Assembly: GCF_001017755.1 (NCBI RefSeq)
Contig: NZ_JWIO01000004.1
Location: 1,085-58,654, forward strand
Direction: 5' to 3'
DNA: 57,570 nt
Origin: Protofrankia coriariae
Lineage (GTDB): Bacteria > Actinomycetota > Actinomycetes > Frankiales > Frankiaceae
Shown here: in pieces, positions 19,099 to 42,848 of the stretch
Layout of the letters: the number at the start of each line of letters is the position of its first letter
Position numbering within the stretch: position 1 is the stretch's first letter
Notes under the pieces: model-generated
Seen by the model: only the letters and a program-made list of their open reading frames with translations
Database searches by the model: none
Told to the model about the DNA's origin: nothing
Made by a program: the position numbers and the translations under genes

Positions 19099-19130
19099 CG
19101 ATGTGCCTCTTTCGGAGGTCGGACGGCCAT

Positions 19131-20189: not shown

Positions 20190-20230
20190 CGATCCCCCTA
20201 TACGTGGCACTACACAATGAGCGTCGGCGT

Positions 20231-25416: not shown

Positions 25417-25418
25417 GA

Positions 25419-26483
25419 TCAGTTCACTCCTTGACCGATGATCTGACCGAGCGGCGGAACGGGCAGGGATGGCGCCGGCTGCTGAGGGAACGGCGACGGG
25501 ATAGCCAGCCCCGGGATGAACTGTGCCGTCGGGAAGACCCCCAGTCCGCCCACATCGGCGACACCGGTGAAGAACGGTCCCGCGGCGATGCCTTCGCCGA
25601 GACCCGTGATGAAGGTCGAGACCCGCTGGATCGCGGAGATGATGTTACCCTCGTTGCTCCGCAGAATCCCGATGGTGTGGTTGAGCTTGTCGAGCGCCGG
25701 CTTCAGCTTGTCGCGCTGCTCGCCGGTGAAGCCCACGATTTCGTTGGTGAGCTGGGCAGTCCGGTTGAGCAGTTGCTGGATGGTGTTCCGCCGGGCGTTG
25801 AGCTCGGCCAGCAGGAGGTTACCGTCCTGTACGAGCGATGTGAGCTGCTTTGACGTGCCCGCCAGTACTCCGGTGACCTGCTGCGCGTGCTGGAGCAGCT
25901 CCCGCAGCGCCTGGTCTCGGGAGGCCACCGTACGGGACAGCCGCGTGATCCCCTCCATGGCCGGGCCGATGTCGCCGGAGGTCTGCGCGAAGGCCTGGCT
26001 GAGCGTGTCGAGTGCCTGACCGGCGTCATCGACATTGATCTCGCCTGTATGCCGGGTCAGATCCTCGAGGCCCTGCGTGAGGCTGTATGGCGCCTGTGTA
26101 CGCGAGGACGGGATCGCATCGCCCGGAGACATCTTCCGGGTGCCGGTGGAGACGATTCCGAGTCGCCGCTCGCCGAGCAGGGTCTCGGTCTTGATCTGGG
26201 CGGTCGACTGGTCACGCAGTATCACGCCTTTCGCGGTGAACGTGACCTTGACCTGATTGCCCTTCAGTTCGACATCGGTGACCTTGCCGATCTTCGTGCC
26301 CGCCATCGTCACCGTGTCGCCGGCTCGGAGCCCGCCGGCCTCGGTGAACATCGCCGAGTAGCTGTCGCCGGCGATGATCGGCAACGCTGCCAACTGGAAC
26401 GACCCGTACAGCAGACCAACCAGCGCCGCGATGCCGACCACCGCGATCGTTACCGGGTTGCGCTCCCGAAATTTGATCATCAT
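25419..26483 (-). CDS. mceC: MceC (354 aa)
   Basis: Membrane anchor (VTIAVVGIAALVGLLYGSF), MCE domain about 38-115 with VTMAGTKIGKVTDVEL, and a helical region to about 300, ending in a short Pro-rich tail. The ATGATG start overlaps mceB by 4 bp, and a VN stop precedes mceD by two bases, showing tight translational coupling. Slightly shorter than its neighbours, as usual for MceC. Confidence 0.92.
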   Translation of the reverse strand: MMIKFRERNPVTIAVVGIAALVGLLYGSFQLAALPIIAGDSYSAMFTEAGGLRAGDTVTMAGTKIGKVTDVELKGNQVKVTFTAKGVILRDQSTAQIKTETLLGERRLGIVSTGTRKMSPGDAIPSSRTQAPYSLTQGLEDLTRHTGEINVDDAGQALDTLSQAFAQTSGDIGPAMEGITRLSRTVASRDQALRELLQHAQQVTGVLAGTSKQLTSLVQDGNLLLAELNARRNTIQQLLNRTAQLTNEIVGFTGEQRDKLKPALDKLNHTIGILRSNEGNIISAIQRVSTFITGLGEGIAAGPFFTGVADVGGLGVFPTAQFIPGLAIPSPFPQQPAPSLPVPPLGQIIGQGVN

Positions 26484-27595
26484 CGCGCATCACCGCTCAG
26501 CTTCTGCTTCTGTTCACGCTGTGCCGGGGTTTCCAGTGGAGCGGTCCCGAACTTGCAGCGGTCCGCGTTGGGGGCCGGACCGATGTAGGGGGTGTAGAAC
26601 GGTTGGCCGTTGGGACCGGTCAGTTTCAGTCGCAGCGAACACACGTAGAGGCCGTAAGTGCTGCCCCGCGCGCCGACCCGGCCGATGCGCAGGTAGGCCC
26701 CGGGCAGCATGCTCAGGGCCGCGTTGATGTCGGCTTCGCCCGCGTTCGCCTGCGATGCGGCCCGGTCGAGCTGGGTGACGGTGTCGCGCAGCGGCCCGCG
26801 GACCTTCACCAGCAGATCGCTGAGGGAGGTCACGAGCTGGTTCGAGCCGGCGAGCGAGTCACCGAGCCGGCCGCGATCGTTCGCCAGGCCGCTGACCAGC
26901 GTCTGGAGCCGGTCGATAGTGCCCTTCAGCTGCGGCCCGTGCTGGTCGAGCGTGCCGAGCACGGTGTTGAGATTGTCCACCAGCTGCCCGATCACCACGT
27001 CACGGTCCGCGAGGGTGTTCGTCAGCGACGCCGCTCGCTTCAGCAATGAGTCGATCGTCCCGCCCTGCCCCTGGAACACCGACACGATCTCGGTGGACAG
27101 GCTGTTGATCTGGTCGGGAGCAAGGCCTTCGAACAGTGGGTTGAATCCGGCCAGCAGCACATCGAGGTCCAGTGCGGGAGCGGTCTGCCCGATCGGGATC
27201 ATGCCGTTCTTGGCTAGTGGCGCGGATGGCCCGTCCCCCTCCCGGATCTCGAGAAACCGGTCACCGGTGAGGTTGAGGTAGCGGATTGCCAGACGCGCGT
27301 TCCGCGGGATCTGCCGACTGGCGTCGACATCGAAGGTCACCACCGAGCGTGCGCTGTCCTGGACCTTGACGTCGTGCACCGTGCCGACCTTCACCCCGGC
27401 GATGCGGACCGTCTGGCCGGGCCGGAGGCCGGAGGAGTCGCTGAAGACTCCGGAGTAGCGGCGGGTGTCGTCGAGTCCGAAGCGCTGGCCGAGCTCGATC
27501 GAGATGAACCCAAGGACCAACAGGGTCGTGACGAGGAAGATAGCGCTCTTGATCAGCGGCCCGGTGATGGCCAGTGCGGATTTGCGCCCGGTCAC
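26480..27595 (-). CDS. mceB: MceB (371 aa)
   Basis: Membrane anchor (SAIFLVTTLLVLGFISI), MCE domain about 42-125 with VRIAGVKVGTVHDV, helical region to about 300 and a Cys-containing C-terminus (YVCSLRLKL, DRCKFG). It overlaps mceA and mceC by 4 bp each. Structural subunit of the tunnel. Confidence 0.92.
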   Translation of the reverse strand: MTGRKSALAITGPLIKSAIFLVTTLLVLGFISIELGQRFGLDDTRRYSGVFSDSSGLRPGQTVRIAGVKVGTVHDVKVQDSARSVVTFDVDASRQIPRNARLAIRYLNLTGDRFLEIREGDGPSAPLAKNGMIPIGQTAPALDLDVLLAGFNPLFEGLAPDQINSLSTEIVSVFQGQGGTIDSLLKRAASLTNTLADRDVVIGQLVDNLNTVLGTLDQHGPQLKGTIDRLQTLVSGLANDRGRLGDSLAGSNQLVTSLSDLLVKVRGPLRDTVTQLDRAASQANAGEADINAALSMLPGAYLRIGRVGARGSTYGLYVCSLRLKLTGPNGQPFYTPYIGPAPNADRCKFGTAPLETPAQREQKQKLSGDAR

Positions 27596-28824
27596 CGCGT
27601 GCCTCCCTGCAGCTGCGCCGTCTCTTGGTCCGTCAATGGCGCGCCTGCCAGCGGACCGAACAGCTGCACAACCAGCGGCGGATCCCCTACACGCAGCCGG
27701 TTGTCACCGGGGTACGGATTCGCCTCGCCGCCCTTGTCGAAGTCCTTCGTGGCCTCCGTCGGCACCACGCGCCCGTCGTAATGCGGCAGCCCATAACACT
27801 TCGGACCGATGTCGGCGGACATGTTCGGGAGGTTCTGCGGGTTCTTGTACATGACATCTCCCGGCTCGAACTGGACGAGACCGGTGATGCCGGGGACCTT
27901 ATCCTGCGTGGCGAGCATCTGTTTGTCCGCCTTGTCGATGCCTTGCAACAGGCAGGCGAACTCCGGCGAGTACCGCTTCAACAAAGCCGTCGTGGGTAAC
28001 GCGTTCTGCACGACACTCACCAGGGCATCAGCGTTCTGCCCGAAGAAGACACCGCCCTGGTTTCCGGTCTTGCTCACCTGGAACAGGAAGGAGTCGAGCT
28101 GAGCCTGCTGCTCGACCAGCGTCCGGCTCGTCACCGTTACGCTCTCGAGGATGTGTGACAGGTCCGGAGCGATGTCAGCATAGAGGTTGGCGACATCAGC
28201 CGTCCTGGAAAAGTCACTTTGCAGCTGCGGCAAGTTCTCGTTGAACTTGTTCAGATAGGCGGCGAGGTCGGCGCCGGTCTGCCCGAGCTCGTCACCGCGC
28301 CCCTGCAGCGCGCCGGCCAGGTTTCCCAACACCGCGCTGACCTTCGCCGGCGAGGCGGTGTCCAGGATGCGCTGGAGATGATCGAACAGTGTGTTGACCT
28401 CGACGGCCACCCGGTCCCCGCCGACCTGGTCACCAGCCTGGAGAGTGCGTGTGGTGGGATGCTCGGGATAGGTCAGCTCGACCGACTTCGCGCCGAACGC
28501 CGTGAGCTGGTTGAGCTGGACTCCAACGTTAGCCGGGATGTCCTTCATCTTGTCGGGATCCATCTTGAGCGTGATCAGCACACTTCGGCCGTCCTCGGTG
28601 CGTGTCATCGACCCGACATGACCCACGTCGACACCGCGCAGCTGCACCCGATTACCTCGATACATCTGCAGTCCGGTGCGGTCGGCGCGCAGCGTGACAT
28701 CCACAGTGCTGATGAATGCTTGCTGGTATGCGGCGATGCACAGCGCACCAAAGCCGCTCACGACCGCGATGAGTATCAACGCATAAAGCCGTAGCCGCAC
28801 CCGGCCGAACATCGATGTCTGCAC
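27592..28824 (-). CDS. mceA: MceA (410 aa)
   Basis: First MCE protein of the operon: membrane anchor (LYALILIAVVSGFGALCIAAY), MCE domain about 38-120 with VQLRGVDVGHVGSM, long helical segment about 140-260, and a C-terminal domain with Cys in FACLLQG and PKCYGLP. GTG 28824 (VQTSMFGR) with GGGG seven bases upstream is favoured, ATG 28812 is the alternative; both lie just after the yrbEB stop. The C-terminal VPTEATKDFDKGG and QLFGPLAG segments resemble cholesterol-type Mce4A and other MceA proteins, but I cannot assign the substrate from that. Confidence 0.92.
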   Translation of the reverse strand: MQTSMFGRVRLRLYALILIAVVSGFGALCIAAYQQAFISTVDVTLRADRTGLQMYRGNRVQLRGVDVGHVGSMTRTEDGRSVLITLKMDPDKMKDIPANVGVQLNQLTAFGAKSVELTYPEHPTTRTLQAGDQVGGDRVAVEVNTLFDHLQRILDTASPAKVSAVLGNLAGALQGRGDELGQTGADLAAYLNKFNENLPQLQSDFSRTADVANLYADIAPDLSHILESVTVTSRTLVEQQAQLDSFLFQVSKTGNQGGVFFGQNADALVSVVQNALPTTALLKRYSPEFACLLQGIDKADKQMLATQDKVPGITGLVQFEPGDVMYKNPQNLPNMSADIGPKCYGLPHYDGRVVPTEATKDFDKGGEANPYPGDNRLRVGDPPLVVQLFGPLAGAPLTDQETAQLQGGTR

Positions 28825-28828
28825 AGCG

Positions 28829-29671
28829 CTACCCCGAGATCCGAAACGCGTCGGAGTTCGCGTACAACGCCATCGCGATGCACAGCTCAATCGTCATGAC
28901 CGCGATGAGCGAGGTCCGCACCGCGCGCCCGACCGCCTGGCCGACACCAGCCGGGCCGCCGGAGGCAGTGTAGCCATAGTAGGTGTGGATCAGAATGATG
29001 ACTATCGCTATACCCACGGCCTGCGCGAACGCGAACATGACATCCTGCCACTGCATAAACGTGTTCATATAGTGGTTGAAGGTACCCTCGGAAAGCCCGA
29101 AGAAGTTGACCTGGGTCACCTTCCAACCGATCCATCCACCGACCATGGCCATCGCGAAAATCGGAATGATAGTGATCATTCCGGCAACCAGTCGGGTCGT
29201 GACCAGATAGGGCAGCGAACGCACAGCCATCACTTCGAGAGCGTCGATCTCCTCGGCGACTCGCATTGCACCGAGCTGCGCCGTGAAACCACTGCCAACC
29301 GTCGCGGCAAGCGCGGCACCGGCAACGATCGGAGTCAGCAGCCGCGGGGTGATGATGGCAGAGGCGAATCCACCGAGCGCCTCGAGCTGGAGGTTCTTCA
29401 ACGCATCGAAGGTCTGCACCCCGCCGGTAACACCGGCGAATAGTGTAATGAAAAGGGTTATGATCGACGAACCACCGATCACCGCGAGGGCGCCAGTGCT
29501 CATCCCCACCTCGGCGATCAGTCTGACCTGCTCGGTCTTGTAATCCTTGACCGCCTTTGGTGTCCAGGCCAGTGCCTGGCCGTAAAATGAGGCTTGGCGG
29601 CCCAGGTCGTCCAGCAGCCGCAGTGGCACACCAAAGACGTGGACCAGACCACGCCGAAATCCTCCAGCCAT
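28829..29671 (-). CDS. yrbEB: YrbEB/MlaE-type permease of the Mce system (280 aa)
   Basis: Inner-membrane permease with five to six hydrophobic segments. Carries the diagnostic MlaE/YrbE motif VAEEIDALEVMAVRSLPYLV after GSGFTAQLGAMR, which contacts the ATPase. An amphipathic N-terminus (residues 1-50) precedes the first membrane helix. Starts at the stop of yrbEA (one-base overlap). Works as a heterodimer with YrbEA and MceG. Confidence 0.94.
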   Translation of the reverse strand: MAGGFRRGLVHVFGVPLRLLDDLGRQASFYGQALAWTPKAVKDYKTEQVRLIAEVGMSTGALAVIGGSSIITLFITLFAGVTGGVQTFDALKNLQLEALGGFASAIITPRLLTPIVAGAALAATVGSGFTAQLGAMRVAEEIDALEVMAVRSLPYLVTTRLVAGMITIIPIFAMAMVGGWIGWKVTQVNFFGLSEGTFNHYMNTFMQWQDVMFAFAQAVGIAIVIILIHTYYGYTASGGPAGVGQAVGRAVRTSLIAVMTIELCIAMALYANSDAFRISG

Positions 29672-30450
29672 CAGTGGTTCCCTCCAACGATCCCCAATGA
29701 GTACGGCACCTGGGTCAACAGGATGTTGAGCGGGAACAGCGCCAGGAAAGTGTAGACCACGGTCTCGTTCACCGCGTTGCCCACACCGCGTGGGCCGCCG
29801 GCACAGGTCATGCCGCGATAGCAGCCGACGAGGGCACCGACCACACCGAAGGCGACAGCCCGGAGCTCACCGTGCACCAGGTCTGCGAACCCGACCAGAA
29901 GCTTCATCGAGTCCACGTACTGCCCTGGACTGGCTTCCTGGAGGAAGACCGCGAAAAAGAACCCACCAGTCAGGCCGATCAGGATCATCACGCCGTTGAG
30001 CAGAAACGCGCACAGGGCGGTCGCGAGCATCCGGGGCACGACCAGCCGCTGTATGGGATCGATGCCCAGGACCATCATCGCGTCAAGTTCTTCACGGATC
30101 CGGCGGGCGCCTATGTCCGCGCAGATGGCCGTCGAACTGGCTCCGGCGATGATGAACGTCGTCGCAACCGGGCCGATCTGGGTGATCGTGGCGAGGCCCG
30201 AGCCGGAACCGCTCAGGTCGATCGCGCCAAGCTCCGACAGGATCAGGTTGAACTGGAAGGTGACCAGCGCGACGAACGGGATACCCAGCAGAATGGCCGG
30301 ACCGAGTGAGACACTGGCGACGAACCAGGTCTGCTGGATGAACTCGCGCCATTGGAACGGCCGCCGGAAAACGGCGACGAACGTGTCGAGCGTGAACGCG
30401 AAGAAGTTGCCGATCGGTGTGGCGATTCTGGTAAGCGAGATCATGGCCAT
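29671..30450 (-). CDS. yrbEA: YrbEA/MlaE-type permease of the Mce system (259 aa)
   Basis: First gene of the mce operon. Polytopic MlaE-type permease with the motif RREELDAMMVLGIDPIQRLVVPR after ASSTAICADIGA. Start uncertain among GTG 30459, ATG 30450 and ATG 30444; I take 30450, about ten bases from AGGTGG. Preceded by an unusually long untranslated region of about 390 bp if the promoter at 30.85 kb is the one used. Confidence 0.92.
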   Translation of the reverse strand: MAMISLTRIATPIGNFFAFTLDTFVAVFRRPFQWREFIQQTWFVASVSLGPAILLGIPFVALVTFQFNLILSELGAIDLSGSGSGLATITQIGPVATTFIIAGASSTAICADIGARRIREELDAMMVLGIDPIQRLVVPRMLATALCAFLLNGVMILIGLTGGFFFAVFLQEASPGQYVDSMKLLVGFADLVHGELRAVAFGVVGALVGCYRGMTCAGGPRGVGNAVNETVVYTFLALFPLNILLTQVPYSLGIVGGNH

Positions 30451-30845
30451 AAAGGGCACACCACCTGGGGCGCAACGCCGGCACAGAAACGATCACCAAC
30501 CGGAACGCGCCTGCCGGAAGCCGAAGCGGCCGGCAGCGCGCATCGACGGTCCGTGGATCGGCTCAAGCAGGTCGGCACAGTTGCTCTCAGCACTGAGAAT
30601 TTCCCTTCAGCTACAGCCCCGGTGGTCGCGAAGAGCGAGATCAGCGGACCGGTGGACCCTGACATCAGGCGTTGTTCGTCTTGCTGGGGATCGACCAGTC
30701 GGGATGCGGGTCGTGGATCCGCGACTAGGGCGTCCGACAGTATGAGCACTCGGGACCAGGGATGACATCCGCCGATCGCCTGTACGCCTCACAGGGCTAG
30801 CCGATGATCAACAAGAATCTAATGAAATTTTGATGGTTTCGATGC

Positions 30846-32136: not shown

Positions 32137-32564
32137 CGGTCTTCCACAGCCCATGCCTCACGCAGCCGCGCGTACCCGCTCACGACCTCCACACCGTCCT
32201 GGTTGGTGGTCGAGAACGCGAGCTCAGCCTCCGGACCGTGGGGGCCCTTCGTCACTGACGTCACCGTGGCTGAGACCGTCAGGGTGTCTCCCGGCCAGAC
32301 CTGGTTCTTGAAGCGGACCCCGAAGGCGCTGAGATCGGCTTCGTCAACCCAGCCGGTCACCACCTTGGCGGTCAGCCCCATGGTGAGCTGGCCGTGCGCT
32401 ATGACCTTGTCGTATCCGGCGACCTGGGTGGCGTAGACCTCGTCTGTGTGCAGCGGGTTGAAGTCACCGGATGCGCCGGCATACATGACGAGCTGGGTGC
32501 GCGTCAGATCGTGCACGACCACCTGGGAGTGGCTGTCGCCCTCCGTGAGTTGTTCGAGTCTCAC
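32133..32564 (-). CDS. MaoC-like hot-dog dehydratase subunit (143 aa)
   Basis: Single hot-dog domain of the R-hydratase/MaoC type with the catalytic signature DFNPLHTDEVYA (Asp and His) at about residues 35-46, followed by AHGQLTMGL. GTG 32564 is about eight bases downstream of GGAAGG and five bases after the stop of the preceding hot-dog gene. With that partner it probably forms a two-subunit enoyl-CoA hydratase, as in mycobacterial HadAB or ChsH1/ChsH2. The open frame reaching 32981 is an overlap with that neighbour. Confidence 0.88.
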   Translation of the reverse strand: MRLEQLTEGDSHSQVVVHDLTRTQLVMYAGASGDFNPLHTDEVYATQVAGYDKVIAHGQLTMGLTAKVVTGWVDEADLSAFGVRFKNQVWPGDTLTVSATVTSVTKGPHGPEAELAFSTTNQDGVEVVSGYARLREAWAVEDR

Positions 32565-32568
32565 CTTG

Positions 32569-33045
32569 TCACCCTTCCACCGGTCGCTCGGTGACCACCC
32601 GCACGCGGATTGCTGTGACGACGAGCTCACCGCGCTGGTTGGTGAACCGGGTGATCTCCTCTTCGAAGCGAAGCGTCCCGGCGCGTGCGCTCTGCTTCTC
32701 CCAGCGTTTGCCGGGTTCCCGGTCCACCGTGAGCACATCCCCGGGCCGGATCGGGCGATGGTACTCGTAGTGCTGCTCCGCATGAAGGCTGGTGCCGCTG
32801 CCGCTGGCCGGCGGCGGGAAGCCCGGGCCGCGACCGGACCCGTGCCAGGGCGTGCCAGGGCGCGGACGGTACGGCCAGTCGGGGTCGAAGTGCGCCGCGC
32901 TCGCCACGAAGGTGGGTGGGGCCAGCACGCCGCCGTGCGCCTGTGCGGCAGGGGACTCCTCGTCGTACCAACGGGGGTCAAGGTCCCCCAGAGCGCGGGC
33001 GAACATGAGCACCGCGCCTGCTTCGACCGGGAACGAGAAGCTCAC
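32569..33045 (-). CDS. FAS1-type MaoC N-terminal domain protein (158 aa)
   Basis: Hot-dog domain of the MaoC-dehydratase N-terminal type: ALGDLDPRWYDEESPAA near the N-terminus, then APPTFVASAAHFD and the central helix region, and LHAEQHYEYHRPIRPGD, which is diagnostic. It lacks the D...H catalytic pair and would supply the substrate-binding half to the following MaoC protein. A 4-bp overlap couples it to the preceding acyl-CoA dehydrogenase. The segment RPRPGTPWHGSGRGPGFPPP is a Gly/Pro-rich insertion. Confidence 0.82.
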   Translation of the reverse strand: MSFSFPVEAGAVLMFARALGDLDPRWYDEESPAAQAHGGVLAPPTFVASAAHFDPDWPYRPRPGTPWHGSGRGPGFPPPASGSGTSLHAEQHYEYHRPIRPGDVLTVDREPGKRWEKQSARAGTLRFEEEITRFTNQRGELVVTAIRVRVVTERPVEG

Positions 33046-34316
33046 CGGGCACCTGCCGGCCTGGGCTCGCGAGGCAGCCTCAGGACACCCTCACCGAGGA
33101 TGTTGCGCTGTACCTCGCTGGTCCCGGCGTAGACGGTGCCAGAGTGGGCCACGAGGAAGGCGTCCTGCCAGGGGTCGACCGGGTGGCCGGGTCCTTCTGG
33201 ACGGAGTAGCGCGCCGGTTCCCGCGATATCCAGCGCCAAGGCCCCGAGTTTGAGGTGGTACTCGCTCCAGAACAGCTTCCATGTGGACAGCTGCGGACCC
33301 GGTTCCCGTCCAGCGGCAACCTCGGAGACGGTGCGCTCCCACGATGCGCGCAGCAGCCGAACCTGGGTATGTGCCCAGGCCAACTGCTGGCGCACTACCG
33401 GGTCGCGATCCCGGCCCCTGGCGCGCGCGAGCTCGACGAGCGCGGCCAGCTCTCGTTCACGAGACTGCACCAGCATGGTCGTTGCGCGCCCTGCGGCAGC
33501 TCGCTCGAAAGCCAGCGTCGACTGCACGACCCGCCAGCCCTCGCCCAGGCCCCCGATGACGTTGTCCAGCCGTGCGCGCGTCCCGTCGAAGAAGACCTCG
33601 GCAAACTCCTCCGCACCGGTCATCTGACGGATGGGGCGGGCGTCGATGCCATTCTCTCCCGGTGTGAAGGGGACGATGACGTAGGAGAGGCCCCTGTGCT
33701 TGGGCGCGTCGGTGTCGGTCCGGCAGAGAACAAAAATCATATTTGCCGTGGCGAAGCGGCTGGTCCAGACCTTCTGGCCGGTGATGACGACCTCATCCCC
33801 CTCGATCACACCGCGGGTCCGTGCCGAGGCCAGGTCAGACCCTGCACCGGGCTCGGAGAAACCCTGACAGTAACGGTGCTCACCCGACAGGATCGAAGGC
33901 AGCAGACGCCGTTTCTGGTCGTCGGTGCCGTGCAGGATGATCGACGGTCCGACCATCGACTCGCCTTGCACTCGGTCGACGCGCGGCAGGCCAGCGCGGA
34001 AGAACTCCTCGTCGAGCACCGTCATCTCCGGCGCCTCCCAGCCCCGGCCACCGTACTCCTCCGGCCAGGCTGGGCAGACCAGACGCGCCTGGAGGCAGCG
34101 TTCTTCCCACTCGCGGAAGAGCGGGTGCTGCTGAGCCTGAGCGTGCTGCTCCTCGCTGACAGCCCGCATCACCGAGCCCGGCAGGTCGACGCGGGCCCGC
34201 CAGTCCAGGATGTCGGAGAGCCCCTGGGGCGCGTTGGCCGTAATCCAACCGCGCAGCAGCTCACGCAGCTGCGCAGGCTGCGTACCCGGCGGTATCTGGA
34301 GATCTGCTGTGCTCAT
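33042..34316 (-). CDS. Acyl-CoA dehydrogenase, catalytic Glu at the LCAD/IVD position (424 aa)
   Basis: FadE-type dehydrogenase: PEEYGGRGWEAPE, GFSEPGAGSDLAS, GQKVWTSRF and C-terminal SGTVYAGTSEVQRNILGE. The medium-chain catalytic Glu is replaced by Ala (VYAGT), but AFER at residues 269-272 (Glu271) offers the alternative base. ATG 34316 overlaps the stop of the HMG-CoA-lyase-like gene (ATGA); the frame open to 34781 belongs to that neighbour's antisense of coding and is not used. A longer N-terminus with LLRGWITANAPQ places it near FadE proteins of steroid and terpenoid clusters. Confidence 0.92.
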   Translation of the reverse strand: MSTADLQIPPGTQPAQLRELLRGWITANAPQGLSDILDWRARVDLPGSVMRAVSEEQHAQAQQHPLFREWEERCLQARLVCPAWPEEYGGRGWEAPEMTVLDEEFFRAGLPRVDRVQGESMVGPSIILHGTDDQKRRLLPSILSGEHRYCQGFSEPGAGSDLASARTRGVIEGDEVVITGQKVWTSRFATANMIFVLCRTDTDAPKHRGLSYVIVPFTPGENGIDARPIRQMTGAEEFAEVFFDGTRARLDNVIGGLGEGWRVVQSTLAFERAAAGRATTMLVQSRERELAALVELARARGRDRDPVVRQQLAWAHTQVRLLRASWERTVSEVAAGREPGPQLSTWKLFWSEYHLKLGALALDIAGTGALLRPEGPGHPVDPWQDAFLVAHSGTVYAGTSEVQRNILGEGVLRLPREPRPAGAR

Positions 34317-35260
34317 GCTGCCCCGACACTGGCTGCGAGGGCCTGTACAGTGCGCGACGGGCTCGGCCGGCCCAGTTCCTCCGCCATCCAGAGGCTGGTG
34401 CGCACGAGCGCGTGCAGGTCGACGCCGGTCTCGATGCCGAGCCCGTGCAGCTGCCAGAGCAGGTCCTCGGTGGCGAGGTTGCCCGTCGCGCTCTCGGCGT
34501 AGGGACAGCCACCCAGACCGCCCGCGGAGCTGTCGACCGTCGTGACGCCCTCCTGGAGCGCCGCCAGGACGTTGGCAAGCGCCTGTCCGTAGGTGTCGTG
34601 GAAATGCACACCGAGCTGGTCCCGTTCGATCCCCGCGGCGATGAGGGCGCGCACGAGGGCGCGCACGTGGCCGGGGGTCCCCACCCCGATCGTGTCGCCA
34701 AGGCAGAGTTCCGTACAGCCCAGCGCCACAAGGCGCGTCGCCACGTCGACGACCTGCGTCACAGGCACCTTCCCTTCCCACGGGTCGCCACAGACCATGG
34801 ACACATATGCGCGCACCCCGACTCCAGCTGCGCGTGCCTGCTCCACAACCGGCGTGAACATCTCAATCGACTCAGCGACGCTGCGGTTGAGATTGCGCCG
34901 TGAGAACGTCTCGGTGACCGAAGCAAAGATCGCGATATCTCGCACACCTCGGTCGAGGGCCCGCTGCAGGCCCTTGGCGTTCGGCACGAGGACCACATAG
35001 CGCACCCCGTCCACCGGCTGTAGGCGGTCGATGAGGTCCTCAGCATCTGCCAGCTGTGGCACCCACTTCGGGTGCACGAAGCTCGTCGCTTCCACGGTCC
35101 GCAGGCCGGCAGCCACGAGCCGCTCGACGAACTCGGCCTTCACCACCGTGGAGATGACCTGTTTCTCGTTCTGAAGACCGTCACGCGCGCCCACCTCATA
35201 GATACGGACACGCTGCGGAAGGTTGTCGCGTGCGACAACCTGCGGCGCGATCATGACCAC
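34313..35260 (-). CDS. HMG-CoA lyase-like aldolase (315 aa)
   Basis: DRE-TIM metallolyase family member. Signature EVGARDGLQNE at 22-32 with Arg26 and Asp27, metal ligands HFHDTYG (about 219-223) and GLGGCPYAESATGN with Cys252 of the active-site loop. It would cleave a 3-hydroxy-3-methylacyl-CoA into acetyl-CoA or propionyl-CoA and a ketone product, for example HMG-CoA to acetoacetate and acetyl-CoA. In this operon it sits between two acyl-CoA dehydrogenases, which suggests cleavage of a tertiary 3-hydroxyacyl-CoA from a methyl-branched compound. ScoAB further along could use the resulting keto acid. Confidence 0.92.
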   Translation of the reverse strand: MVMIAPQVVARDNLPQRVRIYEVGARDGLQNEKQVISTVVKAEFVERLVAAGLRTVEATSFVHPKWVPQLADAEDLIDRLQPVDGVRYVVLVPNAKGLQRALDRGVRDIAIFASVTETFSRRNLNRSVAESIEMFTPVVEQARAAGVGVRAYVSMVCGDPWEGKVPVTQVVDVATRLVALGCTELCLGDTIGVGTPGHVRALVRALIAAGIERDQLGVHFHDTYGQALANVLAALQEGVTTVDSSAGGLGGCPYAESATGNLATEDLLWQLHGLGIETGVDLHALVRTSLWMAEELGRPSPSRTVQALAASVGAA

Positions 35261-35270
35261 AGCGTGCTCC

Positions 35271-36419
35271 TTACAGCCCGAGAGAGCGGCCGATGATTTC
35301 CTTCATGATCTCGTTGGTACCACCGTAGATCTTCTGGACACGTGCGTCGACAAACGCTCGCGCAATGGGGTATTCGGTCATATAGCCGTAGCCACCGTGC
35401 AGCTGGAGGCAGTGGTCGACGACACGGTTCTGCATCTCGGAGCACCACCACTTCGCCATGGCAGCCTCCTCGGCCGTGAGCTCACCAGCGATGTGTGCCT
35501 CGAGACACCGATCGACGTAGGCCTGCGCCACACTCACCTCGGTCGCCGCTTCGGCGAGGGTGAAGCGGCTGTGCTGGAAGGAGCCGATGGGCTGCCCGAA
35601 AGCCGAGCGCTGGCGCGCGTACTCGAGTGTCCATCTGAGCGCCGCCTGTGCCGCGGCCACGCTGATCACGGCAATGGCCAGGCGTTCCTGAGGGAGATTC
35701 CTGCTGAGGTAGCCGAAGCCCTTTCCCTCTTGGCCAAGCAGGTTCGCGACAGGGACGCGCGCCTCGGCGAAGAACAGCTCTGCGGTGTCCTGTGCGTGCA
35801 TGCCTATCTTGTCCAGGTTCTTCCCGCGCGCGAAGCCCGGGGTGTCGCGCTCCACCACCAGCAGGCTCAGGCCGCGCGCGCCAGCGGTGACATCGGTCTT
35901 CACGACGACAATGACGAGGTCGGCGTTGATGCCGTTGGTGACGAACGTCTTCGAGCCGTTGACGACGTAGTCGTCACCGTCTCGCACGGCCGACGTGCGC
36001 ACCGCGCCCAGGTCCGAGCCGGTTCCTGGCTCCGTCATGGCGATAGCAGTGATCAACTCGCCCGTGACCAGCCTCGGAAACCAGCGCTCGGCCTGCTCGT
36101 CGTTGGCCAGCTGAAGTAGGTAAGGCACAGCTGTGTCGTTGTGCAGGGAGAGCCCCAGCCCTGACGCGTTGACGCCCGCGGCCTGCACCTCCTCGTGCAT
36201 GACGACGTTGTAGCGGAAGTCCGTCACCCCTCCCCCGCCGAAACGCTCAGGGACATCAAGACCGAGGAAGCCGTTCGCCCCTGCGGCCAGGAAGAGTTCG
36301 CGTGGCACGATGCCGGCGTGCTCCCACTCCAGGTGGTGAGGCACAACCTCCTTTTCGAGGAAGCGCCGAAAGCTGTCGCGGAACAGATTGTGCTCCGTCT
36401 GGAAGACATTCCGCTTCAT
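35271..36419 (-). CDS. Acyl-CoA dehydrogenase, LCAD/IVD-type Glu (382 aa)
   Basis: FadE-type dehydrogenase with IAMTEPGTGSDLGAV, GSKTFVTNG and QLHGGYGYMTEYPIAR. The Glu of IYEGT is replaced by Gly (IYGGTNEI), while NLPQERLAIA provides Glu245 at the long-chain/isovaleryl position. The start is the ATG 36419 that begins MKRNVFQTEHNLFRDSFRR, 13 bp after the CoA-transferase stop. HMG-CoA-lyase gene follows after ten bases. Probably acts on a branched or ring-derived acyl-CoA. Confidence 0.93.
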   Translation of the reverse strand: MKRNVFQTEHNLFRDSFRRFLEKEVVPHHLEWEHAGIVPRELFLAAGANGFLGLDVPERFGGGGVTDFRYNVVMHEEVQAAGVNASGLGLSLHNDTAVPYLLQLANDEQAERWFPRLVTGELITAIAMTEPGTGSDLGAVRTSAVRDGDDYVVNGSKTFVTNGINADLVIVVVKTDVTAGARGLSLLVVERDTPGFARGKNLDKIGMHAQDTAELFFAEARVPVANLLGQEGKGFGYLSRNLPQERLAIAVISVAAAQAALRWTLEYARQRSAFGQPIGSFQHSRFTLAEAATEVSVAQAYVDRCLEAHIAGELTAEEAAMAKWWCSEMQNRVVDHCLQLHGGYGYMTEYPIARAFVDARVQKIYGGTNEIMKEIIGRSLGL

Positions 36420-36432
36420 GTCGGGATACTCC

Positions 36433-37671
36433 TCAAACCACGCGTCGTTCGCGCAGGCGTGCGATCCGCTCGGCCGTGAGACCCAACTCGGCCAGGACCT
36501 CGTCGGTCTGCTCACCCAACGCTGGGGCATGACGGGCCACATCGAACGGCTGCCCCGAGACCGGAGCCGGCCATCCCGTGCCCGTGTAGGGGCCCGCGAC
36601 CGGATGCGTCGTCTCGTGCACGATCTCGCGGGCACGCAGGTGCGGGTCGTCGAGCGTGTCCTGCTTGGAGTTCGCCGGGCACAGGGGGATGTCGTGTGCG
36701 CGCGCGATGTCCATCCACTCGGCGAGCGTGCGCTCCTTGAACACGGGGACAAGCTCGTCCAGCAGATCAGCCTTGCCGCCGTCGGCAAAGTCGACGGCGA
36801 ACGACGTGTTCTTGATGTCGAGCAGATCTTCCCGGCCGACGGCTCTGCAGAAATTGTCCCAGAACTTGTGCTCGATGGCGGCGAGGAGCACGATCCGGTC
36901 ATCTTTGGTCGCGTACCAGGTGTACTTGGGTCGCTTGTGCGGGTCCATGCCTACCGGCGGAGGCGGGTTGCGTCGATCCGTGATGCGCGTCGAGTTCCAC
37001 GCCATCACAGCGTCCAGAGCCTGGTTGGCCAGCACCGCGTCCGCGCCCGCCGCGTCGATGTGGGCACCTTCGCCTGTCTGGTCTCGGCGCCGCAACGCCG
37101 CGATCGTCGTGAGGGCGGCGTACAGTGCGGTGGACAGCGGCCCGTCGATCGATCCGGAGAAGTACAGCCCCTCGGGGTTGAGGACTTGGTGCACCACGCC
37201 CCGCTCGTCGAGCTTGTACTGCTCCTGGCCGGCCACTGCTCCCATCATGTAGCCGTGCACAGGGATCTGGCTGTATGCTCCGCGGGCCCCGAAGCCGCTT
37301 GCCTGGCAGTACACGATGTCCGGCTTGGCCGCGCGCTGCGCCTCGTAGCCGATTCCGAGAGCCTCACACGCATCGCCGGCGAAGCCATCCACAAAGACGT
37401 CCGCTGTCTTCAGCAGGCTGAAGAACAGGTCGCGCCCCTCGTCCTGCCGCAGATCGATCGTGACGCTGCGCTTATTGCGGTTACAGAGCAGATGGAACAC
37501 GCTGTTCTGCGGCGTGATCCGATCACCAAGCTCGCGCAGGTAGTCACCGTAACCCGGGCGCTCTACCTTGATCACATCGGCCCCGAGATCCCCGAGCAGG
37601 CGACTGGTCTGGTCACCGGTCGGCAGCATCGCGCACTCGATGACGCGCACGCCCTGCAGCAGCTCGATCAT
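36433..37671 (-). CDS. CaiB/BaiF family III CoA transferase (412 aa)
   Basis: Family III CoA transferase that moves CoA between acids without ATP. Features: LGDLGADVIKVE near the N-terminus, NRNKRSVTIDLR, GYEAQRAAKPDIVY, and FSGSIDGPLSTALYAALTTI in the central domain; the family's catalytic Asp is probably the one in the GSIDG neighbourhood or the ERGVVH region, which I cannot settle by eye. ATG 37671 overlaps the stop of the CrtC-like gene (ATGA). Likely activates an intermediate of the pathway, for example the side chain acid. GMDPHKRPKYTWYATKDD is a good family segment. Confidence 0.9.
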   Translation of the reverse strand: MIELLQGVRVIECAMLPTGDQTSRLLGDLGADVIKVERPGYGDYLRELGDRITPQNSVFHLLCNRNKRSVTIDLRQDEGRDLFFSLLKTADVFVDGFAGDACEALGIGYEAQRAAKPDIVYCQASGFGARGAYSQIPVHGYMMGAVAGQEQYKLDERGVVHQVLNPEGLYFSGSIDGPLSTALYAALTTIAALRRRDQTGEGAHIDAAGADAVLANQALDAVMAWNSTRITDRRNPPPPVGMDPHKRPKYTWYATKDDRIVLLAAIEHKFWDNFCRAVGREDLLDIKNTSFAVDFADGGKADLLDELVPVFKERTLAEWMDIARAHDIPLCPANSKQDTLDDPHLRAREIVHETTHPVAGPYTGTGWPAPVSGQPFDVARHAPALGEQTDEVLAELGLTAERIARLRERRVV

Positions 37672-38648
37672 GACTGGCCCAACCCCCGCAGGAAGCGACG
37701 CGCCTGGATTCCGGGGAACCACTCGATCGCCTCGCCGTACTGCTTGCTCCCGTCGTCGAGTGTCCACTCGCAGAGCGACCAGTACTGCAGATAGCGGGCC
37801 CAGGGCACCCACTTGAGGACGTTCTTGCACTCACCCTCCGCATGGACGGTGCGCCCTATGTCGTCGGTGCCCTCGATGGCCAACTTCCACGGCACTCCGT
37901 CGGGGCGACGTTCGAGGACCTGCCGGGTGCCGGAGACGACATGGCTGATCTTGTCGTCCTTCTGGATCCATCCGGTGATCGCTGGCTCGATCGTGCCCTC
38001 GATCGGATCTGTCGCCAGCGGCTCGGTGCCTATGTTGTACATCTGGAAGGCGAAGCCCTTCCCGTCGTTAAACCACGGAAAGTCACCACGCGGATTGTCC
38101 TTGTAAAGGCGGGGACCCCAGCTATGGTCGCGGTTGGACCCGCAGTCGACGTCGATCTCCTCGCCGTTGATCCATACCTTCCCGCTGACCCGGCCGCCCT
38201 GCTCGTAGTGGTGCGGCCCCCACTCCTGTGAGCCGTCCGGGAAGCCCGAGTTGGCCACACCCATGGTGGCGTCGAAGCGTAGGTCGAGCTGGCAGCCGTC
38301 GCGGTCGTACCGCATCAGAAAGGTCTTCTGGGGTTCGACGCACTTCAGCGTGAGCCCGTTCGGCGTACTGTAGTCGAACATCTCCACCTCGTCCTTGCGG
38401 ACGTCGAGCGGGGCAAGCTCCAGCCAGTCGTGGTACAGGCAGTCGTACATCTGCTCGCCCGACGGGTCCCAGAGAGCCACGCCCGTCATGGAGAAGTTCA
38501 TGTTCGGCCGATGGTTCATGTAGACGAAGCCCGAGAGGTCCCGCTCTGCGACGTAGAACGGGAACCAAGCACTCTCGTTCCAGAAGGGGCTGTCCGTCAT
38601 CGAGTCCTTGTGGAAGTAGTCGTCCTCGGGACGCACGAAGTCGACCAT
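37668..38648 (-). CDS. CrtC/lipocalin-like (DUF7064/7065-type) protein (326 aa)
   Basis: Beta-rich protein of the type found in terpenoid and steroid clusters and often annotated as hydroxyneurosporene synthase-like. Visible blocks include ESAWFPFYVAERDLSGFVYM, DWLELAPLD, and GSNRDHSWGPR with a conserved His/Trp pair, which is the recognisable signature of the CrtC-like fold (RDHSWG). Start ATG 38648 with AGGAGG four bases upstream. First gene of the eight-gene operon. It might hydrate a double bond like CrtC, or bind the lipid; the function is unproven. Confidence 0.75.
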   Translation of the reverse strand: MVDFVRPEDDYFHKDSMTDSPFWNESAWFPFYVAERDLSGFVYMNHRPNMNFSMTGVALWDPSGEQMYDCLYHDWLELAPLDVRKDEVEMFDYSTPNGLTLKCVEPQKTFLMRYDRDGCQLDLRFDATMGVANSGFPDGSQEWGPHHYEQGGRVSGKVWINGEEIDVDCGSNRDHSWGPRLYKDNPRGDFPWFNDGKGFAFQMYNIGTEPLATDPIEGTIEPAITGWIQKDDKISHVVSGTRQVLERRPDGVPWKLAIEGTDDIGRTVHAEGECKNVLKWVPWARYLQYWSLCEWTLDDGSKQYGEAIEWFPGIQARRFLRGLGQS

Positions 38649-38847: not shown

Positions 38848-40155
38848 ATGACAACGGTGCGCACCCACCCGGGCAAGAAGGCCACGGCGACACGACAGCG
38901 CATCCTCGACGCCGCAGCCAAGATCTTCCGTCAGAACGGCTACACCGGCACCCGCCTCACGGACATCGCTGCGGCGGCACAGATGCAGGCTGGCAGCCTC
39001 TACTACCACTTCGCCTCGCGGGAAGACCTGGTCCAGGAAGTCCTGCGCGTCGGCCAGCAGCGCACGAACGACTTCGTCATAGGCAAGGTCTCCGCCGCGC
39101 CTCCCACCACGAGCAGCCTCGACCGGCTCCGCATCGCCGTACATGCCCATCTCGAGGCCGTCCTTGAGATCGGTGACTACACCGCGGCCACCCTGCGCAT
39201 CTTGGGACAGGTCCCTGAAGAGATCCGCGCTCAGGCCCTCACGCTGCAGCGGGAGTACGGCCAGTGGTGGCGGGAACTGTTCGAGAACGCGCAGCGTGAG
39301 GGTGAGCTGCGTCAGGACCTCGACATCTCCGCGTGCCGCATGCTCGTCCTGGGAGCCATGAACGCATCCCCCGACTGGTTCCACCCCGACCAGCCGAAGG
39401 GACTCACGCTCAGTGGTCTCGAGGAGCAGTTCGCTGCGCTGTTCCTCGACGGGCTCGGGACCTCCAAGGGAAAGCGGCGCCGGTCACACAAGATCATATT
39501 TACCCTCACATCCGATACGCACGAGGAGCCCGCAGCAGAGACACGTGGCGCCGCGACGACCGCTCGGATCCTCGACGCGGCCGCGAAGATCTTTCGCGAG
39601 AACGGCTATGCCGGAGCCCGGCTTGTGGACGTCGCGACCGAGGCCGACATGCAGACCGGCAGCCTCTACTATCACTTCGCCTCGCGCGAGGACCTGGTGG
39701 TGCACCTGCTGCACAATGCCTGGGAACGCACCGACAGCGCGGTGAGGCGCAGCATCAGCGATCTACTCACACGCACCGCGCCTATCAACAAACTGGCGAT
39801 GGCCATGACCGCGCACCTGCTGTCCGTCCTGGCCTGGGGCGACTACACCTCGGCCATGCTGCGAATCCTCGGACAGGTGCCGGACGACGTCCGAGCCGCC
39901 ATCCTTCCATTGCAGCGGACCTACCTCGACCTGTGGCGGGGCTTGCTCAACGACGCTGCCGACGCTGGGGACATCCGCTCCGACCTCGACCTGTCAGTGG
40001 TCCTGATGATGCTGGCGGGTGCCCTGAACTGGACGGTCGAGTGGTACCACGCCGATCACCATCTGGCTCCGGAGCAGCTGGCGGAGCAGTTCTGCGTCCT
40101 TACCCTCGAGGGCATGTCGACACGACGCCGGAGTACGCGTCGACGGAGCACGTGA
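38848..40155 (+). CDS. Tandem TetR-family regulator, two complete TetR units in one chain (435 aa)
   Basis: Two full TetR repressors fused head to tail. Unit 1 (about 16-205) and unit 2 (about 237-425) each carry an HTH with ILDAAAKIF and GSLYYHFASREDLV, plus a ligand-binding domain with DYT(A/S)A.LRILGQVP. The linker (206-236) is basic at KGKRRRSHK, then acidic. A normal TetR has about 200 residues and works as a dimer; here one chain could fold as a pseudo-dimer or make a four-HTH complex. DNA around 38992-39031 and 39658-39697 is almost identical between units, so the duplication is fairly young or kept homogenised. It lies between the two main catabolic operons and is the likely local repressor, induced by a CoA ester in similar FadR/KstR2-like proteins. 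Confidence 0.93.
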   Translation: MTTVRTHPGKKATATRQRILDAAAKIFRQNGYTGTRLTDIAAAAQMQAGSLYYHFASREDLVQEVLRVGQQRTNDFVIGKVSAAPPTTSSLDRLRIAVHAHLEAVLEIGDYTAATLRILGQVPEEIRAQALTLQREYGQWWRELFENAQREGELRQDLDISACRMLVLGAMNASPDWFHPDQPKGLTLSGLEEQFAALFLDGLGTSKGKRRRSHKIIFTLTSDTHEEPAAETRGAATTARILDAAAKIFRENGYAGARLVDVATEADMQTGSLYYHFASREDLVVHLLHNAWERTDSAVRRSISDLLTRTAPINKLAMAMTAHLLSVLAWGDYTSAMLRILGQVPDDVRAAILPLQRTYLDLWRGLLNDAADAGDIRSDLDLSVVLMMLAGALNWTVEWYHADHHLAPEQLAEQFCVLTLEGMSTRRRSTRRRST

Positions 40156-40221: not shown

Positions 40222-41646
40222 ATGACCGGCCTGCTGTCCTACGGCTCCTACATTCCATACCACCGGCTTCGTCGGAGCGACATGCAGGCGGCTCTCGGCG
40301 CTTCGGGGGGGAGAGGCTCACGCGCCGTGGCCTCGTACGACGAGGATGTCGTCTCCATGGGGGTGGAGGCTGGCTCGGCTGCCCTACAGGGACAGCGTGG
40401 TCTGCCTGAGAGGCTCTATTTCGCCACCTCCTTTCCCCCCTACTTGGACAAGACCAATGCGGCTGTGCTGCACGCCGCGCTCGGACTTGATCGGGCGGCG
40501 CTGGCGGTCGACATGGCTGGCTCACCGCGGTCGGCCATCGGCGCACTGCTGGCCGCGAGCGAGGCGCGAGTCCCGGCTCTCGCCGTAGTCGCCGACATAC
40601 GCACCGGGCTACCCGGGAGCAGCGACGAGCGAGAGGGTGGCGACGCGGCCGCAGCGTTCTTGTTCGGACGCGGCACATCGGAGACACCCGAGCTCGCGAC
40701 CGTACTGGCGTTCGCCTCGACCACGGAGGAGTTCCTGGAGCGGTGGCGGACACCCGGCGAAAAGGCTTCCCATACCTGGGAAGAGCGCTTCGCCGAACAT
40801 GTCTACCGACCGCTGGCTGAGGATGCGTTCACCACCTCGCTGAAAGCAGCCGATCTCGCACCTGGCCAGATCGACCACCTTGTCGTGAGCGGTCTGGCCA
40901 CCCGCGCGGTGCGGCAGTTCGCGCAGGCCAGTGGCGTGCGTCCCGAAGCGGTGGTCGACAACCTGGCAGACCGCATCGGCAACCCCGGTGCGGCTCAGCC
41001 CGGGATACTGCTCGCCGCAGCTCTGGACCGCGCTGGCGCTGGCGAAAACGTCGCGCTGGTCCACCTCGCCGACGGTGCGAGCGCTATGCTGATGCGAACC
41101 ACGGAGCACCTGTTGTCCCGGCGTTCCTCGACAGGCGTTTCGGGGCAGGCGGATGGCCCACACGGTGAGCTCAGCTACATTACTTTCCTCACCTGGCGGG
41201 GAATGCTCGACCGCGAGCCACCCCGGCGACCGGAGCCGGACCCGCCCGCGGCACCGCCAACTCGCCGGTCCGCCGGTTACAAGCTCGCCTTTCAGGCGGC
41301 TCGGTGCGACGCGTGCGGAGCGGTCAATGTGCCACCGGGAAAGGTGTGCTTTGCATGTTCCGCGGTCGACCAGATGTCGCGGCTATCGCTGCGTGACACG
41401 CCTGCGACGGTGGCGACGTTCACTGTTGACCGCCTTGCGTTCACACCGAGTCCACCAATGGTGGCCGTCGTCGTCGACTTCGACGGGGGCGGTCGGTTTC
41501 GATGCGAACTCGCCGACGCGGCCCCGGCAGACGCACATATCGGTCTGCGTGTCGGCCTCACATTCCGACGCCTGCTGACGGCCGACGGCGTGCACAACTA
41601 CTTCTGGAAGGCACGACCTCTTCGCACGGATGAGACGAGGCTCTGA
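40222..41646 (+). CDS. HMG-CoA-synthase-like protein fused to a DUF35 zinc-ribbon/OB domain (474 aa)
   Basis: N-terminal thiolase-fold domain (about 1-330) of the HMG-CoA synthase/KAS III type: SYGSYIPYHRL start, GDAAAAFLFG, NLADRIGNPGAAQ. At the site where HMG-CoA synthases have the nucleophile Cys this protein reads DMAGSPRSA (97-105), so no Cys is present. After a Pro/Arg linker (331-350) comes a DUF35 zinc ribbon with Cys362, Cys365, Cys376 and Cys379 and an OB fold (385-470). Archaeal HMG-CoA synthase and SCP2 thiolases are known to associate with separate DUF35 proteins; here it is fused and is translationally coupled to the thiolase gene. Probably a scaffold or an altered-mechanism subunit. 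Confidence 0.85.
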   Translation: MTGLLSYGSYIPYHRLRRSDMQAALGASGGRGSRAVASYDEDVVSMGVEAGSAALQGQRGLPERLYFATSFPPYLDKTNAAVLHAALGLDRAALAVDMAGSPRSAIGALLAASEARVPALAVVADIRTGLPGSSDEREGGDAAAAFLFGRGTSETPELATVLAFASTTEEFLERWRTPGEKASHTWEERFAEHVYRPLAEDAFTTSLKAADLAPGQIDHLVVSGLATRAVRQFAQASGVRPEAVVDNLADRIGNPGAAQPGILLAAALDRAGAGENVALVHLADGASAMLMRTTEHLLSRRSSTGVSGQADGPHGELSYITFLTWRGMLDREPPRRPEPDPPAAPPTRRSAGYKLAFQAARCDACGAVNVPPGKVCFACSAVDQMSRLSLRDTPATVATFTVDRLAFTPSPPMVAVVVDFDGGGRFRCELADAAPADAHIGLRVGLTFRRLLTADGVHNYFWKARPLRTDETRL

Positions 41647-42848
41647 TGGCATCACGAGGTATCTGTGATCGGGTCGCAATCGTTGGCATGGGCTGTACGG
41701 TGTTCGGCGAGCACTGGGACCGCGGCACGGATGACCTTCTCGTCGAGGCGGTGGGGGCAGCCACGCAGAGTACATCTATCGCGATCGACGACATCGACGC
41801 TTTCTGGCTCGGCACCTACATGTCAGGCGTCTCAGGTCTGACGCTGAGCCGTCCGCTCCGGATCCGCGACAAACCCGTCAGTCGCGTCGAGAACATGTGC
41901 GTGACAGGATCCGAAGCGTTGCGTGGCGCCGCGTACGCCGTCGCCAGCGGCGCCTACGACATGGCCATGGCCGTCGGCGTCGAAAAATTGAAGGACTCCG
42001 GCTACTCCGGTCTGACTCGTCAGTCGATTCCGGGCGACGGGACGGGCGGCACGCTTGGCACCACAACGGCACCAGCCAACTTCAGCCTGCTGGCACCGGC
42101 CTACAGCCGGAAATACGGCGTGGACGAAGACCAGTTGAAAGAGGTCTTCACTCGGATCGCCTGGAAAAACCACAAGAACGGTTCCCGGAACCCACGGGCC
42201 CAGTTCCGAAAAGAAGTGGCCAGGACAACCATCGCCCGTTCCCCTCTGGTCGCCGGAAACCTCGGCGTATTCGACTGCTCCGGGGTATCGGATGGGGCAG
42301 CGGCAGCGATCGTAGTACGGGCCGAGGACGCGTACCGCTACACCAAGCGCCCCCTGTTCGTGAAGGCGTTGTCCTTCGTGTCCGGTGCGGCAGACGGTAA
42401 CATCGACCCAAACTACGACTTCACGACCTTCCCGGAGGTCGAGGCATCCGCAAAGGAAGCCTACCGCCAGGCGGGCGTGTCCGATCCTCGGGCTCAGATC
42501 GCGATGGCCGAGGTGCACGACTGCTTCACCGTCACCGAACTCGTCCTCATGGAGGATCTCGGCTTCGCCCCCCGCGGAACCGCATGGAAGGACGTTCTGG
42601 CTGGGGCGTTCGACCTGGACGGCACACTACCGGTCAACCCCGACGGCGGACTGAAGGCATTCGGTCATCCTGTGGGGGCGTCAGGGCTTCGCATGCTCTA
42701 TGAGTGCTGGCTGCAGCTTCGTGGTGAAGCTCCGGAGGAGCGGAGCATTCCCAGCACGGGAAAAACTATGGGCTTGACCCACAATCTCGGCGGAGGCCCC
42801 GGCGAGTGTGTATCGTTCGTATCCATCGTCGGGACGGAACGCCCATGA
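41646..42848 (+). CDS. SCP2-type thiolase / lipid-transfer-like acyltransferase (400 aa)
   Basis: Thiolase of the SCPx/Ltp branch. Nucleophile Cys85 in ENMCVTGSE; HDCFTV at 291-296 and GHPVGASG at 341-348 give the His residues; the C-terminal Cys of classical thiolases is replaced (NLGGGPGE), as expected in SCP2 thiolases and in Ltp2-type aldolases. The ATG overlaps the stop of the HMG-CoA-synthase/DUF35 gene by one base. It may cleave a 3-ketoacyl-CoA or carry out a retro-aldol step with the DUF35 domain, as Ltp2 does with ChsH2. Ends 120 bp before the convergent Baeyer-Villiger gene. Confidence 0.92.
   Translation: MASRGICDRVAIVGMGCTVFGEHWDRGTDDLLVEAVGAATQSTSIAIDDIDAFWLGTYMSGVSGLTLSRPLRIRDKPVSRVENMCVTGSEALRGAAYAVASGAYDMAMAVGVEKLKDSGYSGLTRQSIPGDGTGGTLGTTTAPANFSLLAPAYSRKYGVDEDQLKEVFTRIAWKNHKNGSRNPRAQFRKEVARTTIARSPLVAGNLGVFDCSGVSDGAAAAIVVRAEDAYRYTKRPLFVKALSFVSGAADGNIDPNYDFTTFPEVEASAKEAYRQAGVSDPRAQIAMAEVHDCFTVTELVLMEDLGFAPRGTAWKDVLAGAFDLDGTLPVNPDGGLKAFGHPVGASGLRMLYECWLQLRGEAPEERSIPSTGKTMGLTHNLGGGPGECVSFVSIVGTERP

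Follow-up and report, generated by a model that had tools for sequence, protein, structure and literature searches.

We analysed a 57,570-nucleotide stretch of the Protofrankia coriariae genome (contig NZ_JWIO01000004.1, hereafter the window) and focused on two overlapping genes at positions 40222-42848, which encode a fusion of a 3-hydroxy-3-methylglutaryl-coenzyme A (HMG-CoA)-synthase-like half with a DUF35 half, followed by an SCP2-type thiolase. In our reading, the fusion is a translationally coupled pseudo-synthase-DUF35 scaffold which, together with the thiolase, probably makes up one heteromeric degradative thiolase. The observations that carry this reading are the loss of the synthase residues, the intact thiolase residues, the strict pairing of the two genes, the fold of the synthase half and the gene cluster in which the pair lies.

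Both genes are on the forward strand. The fusion gene (CTCTGATGGCA; 40222-41646) starts with an ATG at 40222, ends with a TGA at 41644-41646 and encodes 474 amino acids; the thiolase ATG lies at 41646-41648. Stop and start overlap by one base in the sequence TGATG (41644-41648), a sign of translational coupling, so the coordinates, the fusion and the one-base overlap given in a preliminary description of this DNA were borne out by the positions of these codons. The protein opens with an HMG-CoA-synthase/KASIII-like, catalytically empty domain (amino acids 1-330; 40222-41211), defined by the PRK04262 profile and by fold superposition. It continues with a proline-rich linker (PPRRPEPDPPAAPPTRR; amino acids 331-349; 41212-41268), mostly modelled at low confidence, with a predicted local distance difference test (pLDDT) score below 50 for amino acids 339-347. 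The NCBIfam profile PRK04262 matched the synthase half with 108.9 bits across amino acids 2-329, without reaching its cut-off of 244, and a second HMG-CoA synthase profile gave 53.5 against a cut-off of 353 (families TIGR00748 and PRK04262 were tested). The DUF35 half comprises a zinc ribbon (PF12172; 41296-41367) with the pattern CxxC-x10-CxxC and an OB fold (PF01796; amino acids 395-449; 41404-41568; 38.6 bits against a cut-off of 27.1), after which comes the conserved tail HNYFWKA. All four zinc-ribbon cysteines are present (C362, C365, C376 and C379); the Pfam score of the ribbon is borderline (22.8 against 23.2 bits), and another profile search of the fusion flagged it above the cut-off. 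Ribbon and OB fold are thus intact, as had been proposed. The closest relatives of the host genome (5.8 Mb) are Frankia, and the fusion of Frankia sp. CiP1 is 94% identical. In another genome of the same genus (L013/L014, G024:C9) the fusion gene is split into two frames around amino acids 160-178, by a frameshift or an assembly error.

The preliminary description had pointed out that the segment DMAGSPRSA, at the nucleophile position of HMG-CoA synthases, has no cysteine. This segment corresponds to amino acids 97-105. We aligned the fusion with the archaeal HMG-CoA synthase 6esq_I, PhlA, MucA and a FabH from H. influenzae, and with 92 relatives that are 28-94% identical to it and come from actinobacteria, Rokubacteria, proteobacteria and haloarchaea. 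The nucleophile Cys114 of 6esq_I (DLEFACKAG) falls opposite Pro102 (codon 40525-40527), a placement given by the alignment to both HMG-CoA synthase and FabH, while Glu82 is aligned with Ser70 (40429-40431) and the catalytic histidine (FHQPNG) with Ser223 (40888-40890). None of the 92 relatives has a cysteine at the nucleophile position, which is occupied by V (51), P (16), A (11), L (4), Q (4), T (2), S (2), G (1) or R (1), and it is also missing there in 11 further loci. Likewise, no relative has a glutamate at the Glu position (A, T, S, P and V are found instead), and only one of the 92 keeps the histidine. The residue following the nucleophile position, a lysine in HMG-CoA synthase, is an arginine (Arg103) in 90 of the 92. 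We also searched for a displaced catalytic cysteine and found none within amino acids 1-361 of the window protein, whose only cysteines are the four of the zinc ribbon and Cys428, so an active-site cysteine elsewhere, the finding that would have spoken against the preliminary description, did not turn up. Among the relatives, 18 of 92 have a synthase half wholly devoid of cysteine, and where the others have scattered cysteines, no column of this half holds one in more than 13 of 92. Since the cysteine is absent in all 92 relatives and in the 11 further loci, and the gene pair is conserved, its loss is not due to chance or to an assembly error; it is a family-wide trait of the sampled relatives and no accident of one genome.

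Three unfused actinobacterial HMG-CoA-synthase-like genes (L119-L121) had been taken as live controls and were dropped: the cysteine region, which could be aligned in L119, reads DLAGHPG and likewise has no cysteine, and the thiolase neighbours carry YNSF. The controls were then 6esq_I and the H. influenzae FabH. The thiolase beside L119, L120 and L121 thus has YNSF where the window thiolase has HDCF, and a DUF35-type match lies in the vicinity for two of these three genes; they possibly represent a third kind of complex.

Regarding the second gene (41646-42848), it encodes a protein of 400 amino acids that matches PRK06157 ('acetyl-CoA acetyltransferase') with 587.8 bits, above the cut-off of 403. 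SCP-2 thiolases carry the motif HDCF (PMC12329534). The nucleophile Cys85 (41898-41900), the HDCF motif formed by His291-Asp-Cys293-Phe (291-294; 42516-42527), the catalytic His341 of the GHP motif (42666-42668) and Asn380-x-Gly-Gly are all invariant in 97 of 97 relatives. The nearest solved structures are 6esq_A and 7yvy_A, and the profile ranking places archaeal acetoacetyl-CoA thiolase first (E 3e-97), then BbsB (3e-65), PhlC (~1e-49) and the Muc thiolase-like chain (9e-30). The gene would therefore code for a real SCP2-type thiolase and not for an Ltp2/Sal-like aldolase. It adjoins the fusion at every locus with enough flanking DNA, almost always immediately after it on the same strand and commonly with overlaps of -4 or -1 bases; in the two haloarchaeal loci that we read, the thiolase is directly upstream. 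Larger apparent gaps were seen in L038, L075, L081 and L089, and some loci are partial matches. Mean identity to the window is 71% for the thiolase, 56% for the DUF35 half and 50% for the synthase half, and the thiolase is better conserved than the synthase half in 80 of 81 loci. Thiolase and synthase-half distances correlate (0.89 and 0.94, uncorrected for kinship), which we take as weak evidence because shared ancestry is left in.

The fusion was modelled as a single chain with AlphaFold2 (28 sequences), with a pLDDT of 86.9 and a predicted template modelling score of 0.90. The fold searches, which listed matches of the synthase half only, placed 6esq_I first (Z 43.4, root-mean-square deviation 2.0, 327 residues), followed by Phl chains (Z 41.6-40.6) and MucA (Z 37.9), with free-standing HMG-CoA synthases (at most 36.3) and FabH behind. 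The top three matches are all synthase-like chains of multi-component thiolase-type complexes. For MucABC, we assume that a DUF35 protein bridges the other subunits. Such a bridge is documented for the archaeal complex and for PhlABC (PMC6392133, PMC12329534). Thiolase, DUF35 and HMG-CoA-synthase-like modules are encoded together in the window as they are in PhlABC and archaeal-type complexes.

The archaeal thiolase/HMG-CoA synthase complex is the nearest to the window pair both in fold (Z 43.4) and in thiolase (E 3e-97). Its synthase is active (Cys114, Glu82 and His), whereas in the window all three residues are replaced and the DUF35 part is fused. PhlABC, the Pseudomonas 2,4-diacetylphloroglucinol acyltransferase (PDB 5M3K, 5MG5 and 9SKH), shares with the window a thiolase-type catalytic subunit, a DUF35 protein and a synthase-like subunit without Cys and Glu. 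In the window, however, the accessory parts are fused into one protein, the thiolase has HDCF as in CoA thiolases, and the setting is catabolic. PhlA lacks the Cys and Glu, catalysis relies on PhlC residues only, the three genes must be co-expressed for activity, and all three subunits contribute to the walls of a large cavity (PMC6392133). PhlA has been described as an inactive member of the thiolase superfamily, and DUF35 fusions to this superfamily have been noted in general (PMC2954200). In the steroid aldolases Ltp2-ChsH2(DUF35) and Sal-Shy(DUF35), too, an enzyme with the thiolase fold binds a DUF35 domain, as is predicted for the window pair; unlike that pair, these aldolases have no synthase part, show YDHF or YDCY, have a Gly nucleophile position in Sal and perform retro-aldol chemistry. 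The benzoylsuccinyl-CoA thiolase BbsAB (PDB 7PXP) works in degradation and includes a zinc-finger subunit of the DUF35 type, both of which we propose for the window pair. It differs in having no pseudo-synthase domain, and BbsB ranks below the archaeal thiolase (E 3e-65 versus 3e-97). BbsA is among the known DUF35 partners (PMC12329534). We searched the literature for an earlier description of the fusion as a thiolase partner and found only PMC7793797, where its role is unassigned, and the general remark in PMC2954200.

According to these results, we propose that the synthase half retains its fold and is unable to perform a Claisen condensation, while the DUF35 half would clamp it to the thiolase of the next gene. 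The resulting heteromer would be built as PhlABC or the archaeal complex, with two accessory proteins merged into one. The thiolase alone would do the chemistry: a 3-oxoacyl-CoA would be attacked at its 3-oxo group by Cys85, with Cys293/His291 and His341 managing the oxyanion and the transfer of protons; after release of acetyl- or propionyl-CoA, the acyl-enzyme would be thiolysed by CoA. As for the dead half, it would most likely stabilise the complex and enlarge or shape a shared cavity for CoA and substrate, to accommodate catabolic intermediates that are bulky or branched. Complex formation through DUF35, the part played by the cavity, the degradative direction and the bulky class of substrate are all what we infer from the pair and its surroundings.

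The DUF35 half offers a further observation, as its four zinc-ribbon cysteines are all kept in 55 of the 92 relatives and all gone in 37 (mostly reading D..S...S..G), with no partial case. The zinc-less members are L044-L046, L049, L052, L055-L058, L061, L063, L065, L066, L068, L070-L073, L076, L078-L080, L082-L090, L092, L096-L099 and L104. A quick tree built without the DUF35 half indicates at least two independent events, one within an acidimicrobial-type group and another in Sphingopyxis (L104). The two-domain architecture has been said to be conserved in all DUF35 homologues (PMC2954200). Zinc is thus a dispensable, all-or-none structural element here, which agrees with a scaffold role. 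Two of the zinc-less fusions (L057 and L099) are on contigs labelled Bifidobacterium breve and group with the acidimicrobial ones; these labels look wrong.

Some points weigh against the scaffold reading. The sample leans to close relatives, as the scan took the best 80 of 583; the complex is deduced from single chains; and the sequence is compatible with thiolysis as well as with condensation. Besides, the family conserves Arg103 (90 of 92), Trp186 (89 of 92) and Arg189 (90 of 92), the latter two in a WEER segment, none of which occurs in the reference proteins; the dead site may thus have acquired a role of its own. One could argue that the empty synthase site has been rebuilt into a new active site with these or other family-specific residues around the old one, making the fusion itself an enzyme. 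We regard this as unlikely, given that the synthase half is the fastest-evolving of the three modules, that the residues at the three former catalytic positions are free to vary, that, apart from the residues shared with HMG-CoA synthase, neither a Cys or His nor a new acid/base pair stands out as conserved, and that PhlA is a precedent for a dead subunit. Least credible of all is a working HMG-CoA synthase with displaced catalytic residues that receives acetoacetyl-CoA by archaeal-style channelling. Although the fold and the best profile match are those of archaeal HMG-CoA synthase, amino acids 1-361 are free of cysteine, the Glu and His positions are lost as well, and the scores lie far under the family cut-offs (108.9 versus 244; 53.5 versus 353). 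The channelling brought up in the preliminary description is excluded because all the catalytic residues are gone from the synthase half.

An acyltransferase acting on a non-CoA acceptor, as in PhlABC (a Friedel-Crafts reaction on phenolic acceptors, with Tyr298 in the PhlC active site) or MucABC, would have the same three modules and an equally dead synthase-like half, and PhlA and MucA are among the nearest structures. However, the thiolase is nearest to archaeal acetoacetyl-CoA thiolase (3e-97) and not to PhlC (~1e-49) or the Muc chain (9e-30), it retains HDCF, and the catabolic neighbours are dehydrogenases, hydratases and CoA transferases, which leaves this option rather improbable. Even less probable is a retro-aldolase like ChsH2-Ltp2 or Shy-Sal that cleaves 3-hydroxyacyl-CoA, despite the DUF35 partner and the occurrence with steroid-type clusters. 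The motif is YDHF in Ltp2 and YDCY in Sal, where the nucleophilic Cys is also replaced by Gly (PMC12329534), whereas HDCF and Cys85, together with His341, stand in 97 of 97 relatives of the window thiolase. Within the same genome, other DUF35 genes (L001, L002 and L003) adjoin Ltp2/Sal-like thiolase-fold sequences that read YDS or YDG and have Asp or Gly at the Cys85 position where it is covered; one of the two sequences at L002 retains Cys85, yet its motif is HDA. On a plasmid of Novosphingobium sp. ES2-1, a separate lipid-transfer-protein/OB-fold pair lies close to the fusion/thiolase pair. The invariant HDCF and Cys85, the same-genome control and the separate pair in ES2-1 make an aldolase unlikely. 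The preliminary description had left the choice between a thiolase/aldolase scaffold and a new C-C bond-breaking enzyme; the scaffold is supported by nearest structures that belong to DUF35-bridged complexes and by the PhlA precedent, and these residues do not support the other option, a new enzyme in the manner of Ltp2 or Sal.

The scaffold-thiolase pair lies in a conserved gene cluster. Directly upstream on the forward strand, a gene for two TetR repressors fused in tandem (38848-40155; two TetR_N and two TetR_C_24 stretches) has homologues in L015, L022, L025 and L029, head-to-tail and upstream of the pair. Divergent from these genes, on the reverse strand, we found a CaiB/BaiF-type (family III) CoA transferase (36433-37677; PF02515, 289.5 bits; 79-80% identical in L015, L022 and L029), a first acyl-CoA dehydrogenase (35271-36428), an HMG-CoA-lyase-like enzyme (34331-35260; 69% identical over 310 amino acids to the gene product annotated as hydroxymethylglutaryl-CoA lyase on pDK3), a second acyl-CoA dehydrogenase (33042-34330, start approximate), and MaoC-type hydratase subunits of the N-terminal (32623-33039) and C-terminal type (32253-32561), 70% and 65% identical to the MaoC proteins of pDK3. 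Both dehydrogenases were assigned by family search and locus comparison. The neighbours of the pair are thus enzymes of the beta-oxidation type. The same set is present on the Rhodococcus plasmid pDK3 (L015), and most of it in Streptomyces sp. GQFP (L022), Mycobacterium sp. AZCC_0083 (L025) and Frankia gtarii (L029). The lyase-like gene accompanies the synthase-like pseudoenzyme in Rhodococcus, Mycobacterium and Streptomyces too; a synthase would be futile with such a gene in the same cluster. In the route that these genes suggest, dehydrogenation and hydration would give a 3-hydroxy-3-methyl acyl-CoA, the lyase would release a 3-oxo acid, the CoA transferase would reactivate it and the thiolase pair would cleave it. 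Elsewhere in the window there is, by eye, an Mce/YrbE transporter operon (18613-30749), as well as P450, ferredoxin and Baeyer-Villiger monooxygenase-like genes, and this region looks like one for terpenoid or steroid uptake and degradation.

Pairs in other genomes have comparable surroundings: those of L016 and L017 are beside ring-hydroxylating dioxygenases and enoyl-CoA hydratases, and those of L104 and L106 beside MaoC and CoA ester lyase genes. The homologous pair on the ES2-1 plasmid (L019) is 33% and 43% identical to ours and has no cysteine at the nucleophile position either, in a cluster whose order mirrors edc, the estrogen cluster of Novosphingobium tardaugens. There, an 'HMG-CoA synthase' is one of two unassigned genes, and EGO55_13550/EGO55_13555 are an adjacent thiolase and 'HMG-CoA synthase', the latter being possibly a thiolase in the view of the authors (PMC7793797). 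As far as the published description goes, edc resembles the window in having a thiolase next to a synthase-like gene in a catabolic cluster, and the order of its pair is identical to that of L019.

DUF35-bridged thiolase complexes with a dead synthase-like subunit are already known from PhlABC, and the fused, catabolic version reported here would be a variant of them. About 31 of the 198 genomes sampled from the phylum contain a full-length fusion. Such fusions also occur on proteobacterial and haloarchaeal plasmids, and their clusters often resemble degradation routes for large hydrocarbons and steroids. Tentatively, and with more doubt than confidence, we suggest that the former active site (Arg103 and WEER) could be a second ligand pocket opening onto the thiolase and selecting bulky or carboxylated 3-oxoacyl-CoA; there would then be a widespread type of catabolic thiolase that owes its specificity to a pseudoenzyme and, in one clade, does without the zinc of the DUF35 domain. 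Current annotations call these fusions HMG-CoA synthase, 3-oxoacyl-ACP synthase III or OB-fold protein, and thereby mislead the reconstruction of pathways. If the two genes are taken to encode one thiolase, the gap in edc becomes testable, and the pair would provide a model of a pseudoenzyme partner that tunes thiolase specificity.

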